Positions 2,530-6,219 of a stretch of DNA of 64,000 nucleotides are shown in pieces (the stretch's first letter is position 1; each line of letters begins with the position of its first letter). The stretch is from Campylobacteraceae bacterium (GTDB lineage Bacteria > Campylobacterota > Campylobacteria > Campylobacterales > Campylobacteraceae): positions 1 to 64,000 of the forward strand of contig JAIRXG010000002.1 in the NCBI GenBank assembly GCA_031268335.1. The letters run 5' to 3'. Both the position numbers and the translations under genes were made by a program. The notes beneath the pieces were generated by a model that was given only the letters and a program-made list of their open reading frames with translations, ran no database searches and was not told the DNA's origin.

Positions 2530-4937
2530 CTATTCCTTGTTTTTAATAAACCAATTTCTGTGTTCCACAATATAGTCTGTGATTTCATCAACAGTGACTA
2601 TGCGGTTTTTATCAGGATTCCAATATCTGCTCAAAACAACATAAGCAAAATAAAAAATCTCTTCAATGCTTCTTTTTCTAAGACGCCTATCCAAAACTAT
2701 TTTATCTTCGGTAACACCCCATCCGGCATAAAACGGCACTCCATAACAATGAACTTTTTTGCCAGCCATCAACGCTTCAAATCCCATGCCGGAAGAACAT
2801 ACAAAAACATCGTCTACCAAATCAAAAAGAGCATATGGATTGATATCATAGTTATACAAGAAAATATTGTCGGCATATTTTAATGAAGATAGCAAATCTT
2901 TATTAAAATAACTTTGTTTGCCTCCGGTTATAGCATCAGGGTGCTGCTTCATTATAATGTCGTAATCACTATAATGAGATAATGCGTCTTGCAGCATATT
3001 AACAAACGACGAGCTGTCACCCAATCCGTATTTTACCGATGCATCGCTATATCGTTGATCTACTAAAAGAACTTTTCTTTTATTCGGGTTTCCCATACTT
3101 AATTTATAATAAGGAGCATGATTGTATTTCGAAACTCTATGTGTTACTATTTTGGATATACATTTCTTGCAATAATTAATAGTTTTTTTACTAAGCTTGA
3201 TATCGCTATTGAGCAAATTTTCTAATCGTGATGCTTTGGTTGCATCATAATATGCGGTATGACTATCAAATATAACAGACAAAGCCGGTTCGCCGGAAAG
3301 TCCGATATTAATAGATCTTATAAAGCCATCTTCAAGAATAATTGTTGGTTTATTAAGAGCTTTTGCATATGATTTTTGCACTATTTTTTTAGTTCTTGGA
3401 GTGATACCCCATTGATAAAAAATATCAACGCTTGCTATATTTTTAGTTTCCAAATCATTTTCAGCCAGTAATGTTCTGGCTTGTAATAAATTTTTCAAAT
3501 ATAGTTGCGATGTTTTTAAAACTTTTTCTGTAGTTGGAATACAAGCTACATCAACTATTTTATCATTAAAAAATGTCTCGCAACCATAATTATATTTAGT
3601 GATTTTTCTCTTACCGATTACCATATCGCAAAGATTATTTTTTATGCGCTCCCCTGCCAATCCGTCAAATACTCCTATACCAAAAGCATAAGCAAGTTTA
3701 TTAAATTCCATAGAATTTATACTCCATTGTCCAGATATAGCTCTATCTAAAAGCGTAAATAATTGCTCTTTAGTTTTTGCCACAGGAATAACCGACTCGT
3801 CCCAAATAGATGAAAATTCCAAATAACGAACCGATATAGCCTTTTTAGAAAGCAATATACTCTCAAAAAGCATTGTACTGTTTAAAGAAATAATTATGTC
3901 GGAATGATATATGGACTCTTCTGGACTTGTTAAATAACAACTTGCTTCATCAATTGTAACGAAATCAATCTCTTTGATTGCTCCTGCTGTTGCTTTATTT
4001 AATATATTTTTATCATTTGGTGGAAGACGAAAAATCATTTGACAATTATTAAGCTTGCAATACTTAATAATATCTCTGGTGCTTTGACGTTGTGCATCCA
4101 GCGCTAATTTATAATCAAGCTGACTATCGAGATATTGAGATGCAAACAATATTGTAGTTTTATTGCTTTCAAGTCCGTAAAGGCGGCAAAATTGTTCTTT
4201 GGTAATTTTTGGCTGATAATTTTTATATTGATCCAATTTCGGAGAGCCAACAGCCTCAAAACGTTCTTCAGGATAACCTCTTCCAATAAAAATTTTTTGC
4301 TGTATCTCACCCCAGCCCCAAATATTATCCGTTGTAGGAATGGATGCTTGGGCTCCTTTTATATCATAATAGTATTTGTCGGGATCAAAAAAAACGGACT
4401 CGTGAGGAATTAAAATAGTCGGTATGTCTAATTCTTTACAAACGTCAACAATAATTCTAATAGCTGCTGCCCAATCGAAAGTAAAAATAAACCCCTTTAT
4501 ATCAGCGCGTATTTGAACCAATTTACTTCTAATCATTTTTTTATAAAGAATTGGGTTTATGCGTGCAAACCTCAAAACATCTGTTCTTATATTGGCATTA
4601 TATATATTGTTGATGAAATCAAAAGGTTCTATGCGGTATTGGGCATCGTTTCTGATTTTTGATATTAAAATATCACTATGGCTATATATCCACGGTACAT
4701 ATAAAAATGTATAATTATTTTTAAAAATTTCTTTTAGGGTATTACTGATATATGGATTAAACCATGACGGGATACTTTCATCAAACTTTTTTTCAGAATT
4801 CGGGGGGGGGGGGGGGTAACTTTATTTTTTTCAGGTAATTGTGCAGAAATGACTTCAAGTATTTTTATACCATGCTTTTTATATGCATCTTTAAAAAAGA
4901 GGATAGGATGATTTAATAATTTTGTTATTTTGCTCAC
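2530..4937 (-). CDS. KpsC-like capsule polysaccharide glycosyltransferase, phase-variable, out of frame as sequenced
   Basis: The long open part (2530-4575, longer if read back to the G tract) resembles KpsC/KpsS capsule export proteins that add the beta-Kdo linker to the lipid anchor on the cytoplasmic side. Hallmarks are the block starting PTIILEDGFIRS, YYDATKASRLE, and the C-terminal LLVDQRYSDAS and KQHPDA. A start region from ATG 4937 (MSKITKLLNHPILFFKDAYK) runs into 15 consecutive C on the coding strand. After the tract it continues in the wrong frame and stops at about 4734. Adding one C (or losing two) joins it to the KpsC frame through PNSEKKFDES and gives a protein of about 802 residues. 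No good start exists between the tract and 4575; the TTG at 4575 is only an internal Leu codon. The gene is therefore OFF in this sequence, or the tract length is misread. It is the first gene of the leftward capsule operon. Confidence 0.7.
4802..4816. repeat. Homopolymeric G15 tract in the 5' part of the KpsC-like gene
   Basis: Fifteen G in a row (C15 on the coding strand) about 40 codons after the ATG at 4937. The upstream ATG frame and the downstream KpsC frame differ by two (start offset 362 bases), so tract lengths 13 or 16 restore one frame while 15 does not. Such tracts change length by slipped-strand mispairing and are also prone to sequencing error, so the true state may be mixed. 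Confidence 0.85.
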
Positions 4938-5982
4938 TATTGTTTCCTAAGAAATTTTGTCTTTTTAATTTTTCTTGCAAAAGTTCTCAAAAATTCCATA
5001 TAGACTATCCATTATATATAAAATGATTCAATCTTTATAAAATATTCATAGAATTGTTATTCTACTCCGATTACTTTAAACTTTAATAAAAAACTTATAT
5101 TTTTTTAAAAAGCCTATGCATTCATTTATTTTATAAAAATATTAATATTTTTATAATTTTCTGCTTTCAAGAAAACTTTTGACAGGATATATGTTCAATT
5201 TTATATCTGAAACTTTAATGAAAAGAAAAGCGATACATGACTTGCCTTTTAAACAATTTTTTTGAAAGGTGTTTTAAGAGGATAAATTTTCCAAGTAAAA
5301 TGCAAGTTTTAAGCTCCGAACTCACATTTAAAATTGTGTTTTATAAATTTCGAATTTGACGAATGGCATTTGGAATAAATGCAGGCGAAACTTGAGATAA
5401 AAATAGGTTTTTTCAAGCAATACAAAAGGTTCAGATATGGAATTTGACTGTGAAAACAAAATAGTTTTTGAATTAAATAAGTGCTATGCAGATTATCTTG
5501 TGCGAACAATAAAATTAAGATAGTAGACTATCAAATAGTTAAGATTGAACCAATTGTTACAGTTATAATGGATAGAAAGCCGAGTATGATTGTGATATTC
5601 TCATTATTCGAAAATTTTATTTAGTATCGGCAGGTTTTAAAAAAATTTTGAGGTTAGGATTGGAATCATAGGTGTGAATTTCACACAGTGTAAAGTAAGA
5701 TACAAATATCATAAAAAATATACGATCGAGACTCACAAGCAGCAAAACGGCAGAAAACTTGTTTTTGACAAACCCTATGAATATTGCCAGCGAAACTTAT
5801 ATGCTAAATAAAGATAATGACAGCATCGTATTATCCATTTTTTATATATGTAATGACGGCAGAAAATTTATTTTGAATATACTTGAGGATTATTTTTAAC
5901 TTGAAGTTTTGCAAAAAAATTAGTTTTGGCATAAGGGCAAGCTACAAAGAAGGCAAGTTAACATATAAATTTTTATGAAAAA
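4938..5982. other. About 1 kb without an intact gene; possible decayed coding remnants
   Basis: No full gene is visible between the capsule locus and the ferrosome-like operon. Around 5640-5890 on the + strand, short stretches read like coding sequence in two different frames. One ends in RKLVFDKPYEYCQ and the next contains NIASETYMLNKDND then NDGRKFILNILEDYF. They are separated by frameshifts and stops, so this may be a broken gene of unknown family. An open stretch at 5309-5509 on the minus strand has no recognisable family and an odd composition, and is left out. Promoters for the capsule operon probably lie just upstream of 4937. Confidence 0.35.
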
Positions 5983-6219
5983 CTAATTTTTTTGTAGGTT
6001 TGTTCTGCTTTTTTGTTTTTTATTGCCAGATTGATATAATTTGTGATGCCAATACGAAAAACCTATAAGCGCAACTCCTGCCGCTACATGTACCTTTTTT
6101 GCCGTTTTATTTTTGAGCATAAATGCGCTTGCGGTTAAGATTCCTAGAGAGAGTGTCATGCCGACTTTTGCTATCTCTTTTTTCGTTTTTAAAGTGTCTT
6201 TCATTTGCGTTTTTGTCAT
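5983..6219 (-). CDS. Small two-helix membrane protein, last gene of the ferrosome-like operon
   Basis: A 78-residue protein with two predicted membrane segments, about residues 19-37 and 44-58, and basic ends (KNKTAKK, GNKKQKSR). It starts 2 bp downstream of the P-type ATPase stop, so it is co-transcribed with it. I do not recognise a family. Small hydrophobic proteins of this kind accompany the P1B ATPase in ferrosome clusters of other bacteria, where they are thought to belong to the organelle membrane. That role is inferred here only from position and size. Confidence 0.6.
   Translation of the reverse strand: MTKTQMKDTLKTKKEIAKVGMTLSLGILTASAFMLKNKTAKKVHVAAGVALIGFSYWHHKLYQSGNKKQKSRTNLQKN

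Follow-up and report, generated by a model that had tools for sequence, protein, structure and literature searches.

Does the run of 15 guanines at 4802–4816 in this stretch of DNA (the window, 64,000 nucleotides in all) switch a gene on and off, and if so, is that gene the anchor-making capsule enzyme KpsC? Direct counting gave exactly 15 G on the plus strand, and since the gene reads from the minus strand, its message carries C15, read as proline codons. The only other G or C run longer than six in the window is the C9 at 909–917. A first-order model predicts about 3e-7 runs of at least 15 G or C per 64 kb, and the G15 run within a coding frame is far beyond chance. We computed the product of the leader frame for tract lengths from 11 to 18. 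The frame that opens with the GTG at 4937 gave 801 aa at a length of 13 and 802 aa at 16, whereas the other lengths gave 46 to 68 aa, with 67 aa at the sequenced length of 15; some tract lengths thus yield the full protein and others a truncated one, the pattern of a phase-variable gene. The initial annotation had reported the G15 run at this place, a junction of leader and long frame only at 13 or 16, and a stop near residue 67 at 15, and on all three points it agreed with our count and computation. Its ATG frame had to be replaced, because no ATG reads from upstream into the tract in any frame and the GTG at 4937 is the sole good start. The coordinates are collected in Table 1.

Table 1. Features of the tract gene and its downstream neighbor, in window coordinates
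Feature	Position	Strand	Remarks
AGGAAA, Shine-Dalgarno-like	4943–4948	minus	5' of the GTG start; direct sequence reading
Leader helix motif KLxxxPxxFFKDAxxK	4872–4937	minus	Also found on KpsE and on glycosyltransferases of capsule loci in the family
Leader frame as sequenced	4734–4937	minus	GTG start at 4937; 67 aa; stop at 4734–4736
Putative contingency tract	4802–4816	minus	G15 on plus strand, C15 on coding strand; encodes prolines
Enzyme frame 3' of the tract	2530–4797	minus	755 aa, no internal stop; joins the leader at 13 or 16
N-terminal module	3640–4452	minus	Weakly matches the BFO_1060 glycosyltransferase model, under the cut-off
KpsC-N-like beta-Kdo transferase module	2548–3423	minus	Catalytic Glu, QxxxD Asp and HPD His present
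Next gene	215–2524	minus	769 aa; C-terminal citrate-lyase-ligase-like nucleotidyltransferase domain
Second tract	909–917	minus	C9 on plus strand, G9 in coding strand; linker preceding the nucleotidyltransferase domain; in frame

The leader itself has relatives. The motif KLxxxPxxFFKDAxxK, carried by its 41 residues, also opens KpsE in the genus, as well as large glycosyltransferases from capsule loci in other parts of the family. This homology speaks for the GTG start, and the tract accordingly falls in a linker between the leader helix and the catalytic part. TTG and CTG codons at 4858, 4846 and 4834 are in frame at tract lengths of 14 and 17; they are unlikely starts because they are located past the conserved leader helix. 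A promoter and terminator scan upstream of the tract gene gave nothing above chance, and an Rfam search returned no match in the window. The kilobase or so preceding the gene (4940–6000) carries no convincing frame and may be the site of decayed genes.

The genome is a 1.65-Mb draft, 85% complete and in 31 contigs, and homopolymers this long are prone to miscounts of one base in either direction, naturally raising the possibility of a consensus or assembly error, in which the true tract would be 16 or 13 and the gene simply ON, whether or not the tract can switch it. The neighboring C9 tract, which is in frame, fits such an error as well. However, a miscount would leave the tract itself, its presence at the same position in a second species, and a pattern that runs through the genus. 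A pattern search located seven runs of at least nine G in this genome (lengths 9, 10, 14, 14, 15, 15 and 22), and such runs occurred in 13 of the 14 genomes of the genus. In the 20 stretches that we read, tracts lie, among other places, in genes resembling Type III methyltransferases, TonB receptors, outer-membrane proteins, WG-repeat proteins and glycan-modifying enzymes, names that come from reading translations and not from a family search; many of these tracts are out of frame, and further tracts in the same genome likewise break their frames. With these observations, we consider a plain error clearly unlikely; the count of 15 may also represent the consensus of a mixed population. The WG-repeat gene has its tract near the 3' end, 15 long in G000 (L042:7850–7864) and 13 long in G006 (L237:1539–1551), and slippage there would alter the C-terminus only.

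In a search for mismatch repair proteins, none of the 14 genomes of the genus, several of which are 99% complete, had a MutS1 or MutL match above the curated cut-off, while 11 of 14 controls passed. The frames behind the weak MutS1 matches in the genus measure about 750 aa, and we take them to be MutS2. Long tracts are more mutable where mismatch repair is absent. Two other tracts were noted in passing. On contig C28, a C14 run (L041:6679–6692) splits a long HAD-type, glycan-locus-like frame and is out of frame as sequenced. On contig C18 (L044:1862–1900), a C22 run is followed by GCGGCCGCG, which contains a NotI site, and then by C8, an arrangement odd enough for a library or assembly artefact.

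Behind the tract, the long frame holds two modules. Residues 463–719 of the 755-aa frame match Capsule_synth (6e-36), and the best solved relatives of this C-terminal module are the KpsC modules 6mgb (1.2e-52), 6mgc (3.8e-49) and 6mgd (3.2e-34), of which we take the first two to be KpsC-N and the third to be KpsC-C. Consistently, the module scored higher against the first half of the genome's own KpsC (202 bits) than against the second half (134 bits). The aligned catalytic residues are kept, namely the glutamate in LEDGF, the aspartate in QxxxD and the histidine in the HPD stretch. The published catalytic residues are Glu66, Asp160 and a histidine printed as His94 (PMC10148158); counting along the aligned chain, the HPD histidine is position 194. 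The module thus has the Glu, Asp and His of the retaining beta-Kdo transferases of the KpsC-N/WbbB type, and transfer of Kdo from CMP-Kdo by way of an Asp adduct is predicted. Judged by this module, the sugar added is most likely a beta-linked Kdo or a similar one.

The N-terminal module is far more isolated. The N-terminal 440 residues of the enzyme frame had no Pfam match, even at E = 5, no orthologue was found in 153 genomes of the family except one doubtful match (E = 1e-3), and no relative was found in 399 genomes of the order or in phage records. A scan of genome contigs with the full enzyme frame returned no relative, and no intact-frame orthologue of the tract gene was present in the genomes searched. 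An AlphaFold model of the 755-aa frame made without an alignment had a mean pLDDT of 34, too low for use. The N-terminal module most likely adds another unit.

The same leader (54% at the amino acid level) occurs in a second species of the genus, G006, with a G15 run at the matching place and 75% DNA identity over 171 bp, so the tract position appears to be common to two species. In G006, the leader and tract run straight into a segment that matches window positions 4167–4209 (L110:9812–9878); this segment comes from the middle of the gene, most of which has been deleted. A fusion of the G006 leader to the GT2 gene that follows was ruled out, as no tract length joins them. That the homologous tract is likewise 15 long, with most of the gene lost behind it, counts against a working switch and raises the question of whether the window gene is a decaying, horizontally acquired glycan gene, its tract a relic without selected function. 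The confinement of the gene to one genome and the upstream kilobase without a convincing gene are consistent with such decay. Apart from the tract, however, the 755-aa frame is free of stops and its catalytic residues are intact, and we assign decay a small probability only.

A kps locus, kpsM-kpsT-kpsE-kpsD-kpsC-kpsS, lies on contig C28 (10436–18022) and carries no tract; the names kpsM, kpsT, kpsE and kpsD come from sequence reading and gene order. Its KpsC is of the normal two-module type (683 aa) and is encoded beside kpsS. The tract gene lies outside this locus and has one Capsule_synth module, where KpsC, at about 680 aa, has two. Elsewhere in the genus, the tract protein matches KpsC-type proteins, for the most part in frames near 680 aa, and the window gene is absent from all of these other genomes. 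That the tract gene is the organism's KpsC, so that the tract switches the lipid anchor and with it the whole capsule, is therefore highly improbable despite its one KpsC-N-like module with catalytic residues and the known homopolymer switching of an E. coli kpsC. We reject the identity on the different architecture and on the separate tract-free kpsC beside kpsS; that the genus keeps KpsC and not the tract gene also speaks against it.

The tract gene is instead an extra, accessory capsule-type glycosyltransferase. The label "KpsC-like" given by the initial annotation fits the C-terminal module (about 290 aa) and fails for the rest of the protein. Its proposal that the lipid anchor and the whole capsule are switched is not supported, because a tract-free kpsC and kpsS lie on C28 and the tract gene lacks the two-module architecture; the OFF state is expected to cost the glycan a single Kdo-type linkage or cap, not to abolish the whole capsule. 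Its remark that KpsC is an unusual target is dated, given the reversible 7A/6A slippage reported in kpsC of E. coli K96 (PMC13410964). The genome also has a third gene with a KpsC-N-like module, which encodes two GT2 domains plus the module in 1134 aa (C28:51538–54942; L039:6539–9943), indicating that KpsC-type modules are reused in accessory glycan enzymes here. Its start overlaps the end of a short gene bearing a G14 run (L039:9921–10460, also on C28), and it is possibly phase-variable through translational coupling to that gene. The general lesson is that a one-module KpsC-like match does not identify the capsule anchor enzyme, as this genome keeps a tract-free kpsC elsewhere.

Taken together, we propose that the run is a putative slipped-strand contingency tract within the gene of an accessory, capsule-type glycosyltransferase, a reading to which we give a probability of about 75%. 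A poly-G contingency switch that is OFF as sequenced was also the proposal of the initial annotation, and it is the best-supported reading, given the tracts throughout the genus, the apparently shared position, the failure to detect MutS1 or MutL and the leader homology; the whole 755-aa frame with its catalytic residues is further support. Polymerase slippage would add or remove a G and so change the frame. At lengths of 13 or 16, the leader, the N-terminal module and the Kdo-transferase module would be made as one protein of about 802 aa, and at other lengths, an early stop would leave a short peptide. The OFF state would remove one Kdo-type linkage, a branch or a cap at the chain end of a surface glycan, and the lipid anchor, made by the separate KpsC and KpsS, would be unaffected by switching.

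Switching may also reach the next gene. This gene begins 5 bases past the stop of the tract gene, so the OFF state may lower its expression by polarity. With the second tract inside this gene, the pair could take up to four combined states. Its relative in another genome (G005) has a tract of 14 at the homologous linker, and both copies are in frame. The G005 protein has an extra N-terminal part resembling a hexapeptide-repeat acyltransferase. The upstream partner of this gene varies among the species, being a gene for a 1138-aa HAD-containing protein in G005, glycosyltransferase-like genes in G002 and the tract gene here, and the whole looks like a swappable glycan cassette. More speculatively, the two glycan genes of the operon, each with a poly-G tract, could form a two-bit switch in a gut symbiont, combining a two-module Kdo transferase with a modifying enzyme whose domains would be parted by slippage in the linker, the upstream OFF state silencing the downstream gene by polarity; we hold this extended model to be tentative and somewhat unlikely. 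Campylobacterales genomes assembled from metagenomes have been reported in a termite gut study (PMC9137090).

Long G/C tracts are a vehicle of phase variation in Campylobacter, and the locus described here holds a real and probably working contingency tract of this known kind in an accessory glycosyltransferase. As in the Campylobacter loci of capsule, LOS and flagellar genes (PMC6321876, PMC8355987), an intragenic G/C homopolymer would set translation ON or OFF by frame; a glycan enzyme as target, no detectable MutS1 or MutL and a related family are further likenesses. The locus differs from them in genus and target gene, in having a proline-coding tract right behind a leader helix, and in being known from one sequenced length. 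With it, poly-G phase variation of surface glycans would reach a further genus of the Campylobacteraceae, one represented here by draft genomes only, and an enzyme bearing a KpsC-type Kdo transferase module becomes a candidate for phase variation. That module resembles the retaining beta-Kdo glycosyltransferases KpsC and WbbB (PMC10148158) in its LEDGF glutamate, QxxxD aspartate and HPD histidine, with KpsC-N structures as its best match, but here it stands singly at the C-terminus behind a different N-terminal module and a KpsE-like leader. The E. coli K96 kpsC case (PMC13410964) is likewise a homopolymer frameshift in a KpsC-type gene. In K96, however, a short A tract lies in the true kpsC and the whole capsule is lost, whereas here a G15 tract lies in an accessory enzyme and kpsC is untouched.
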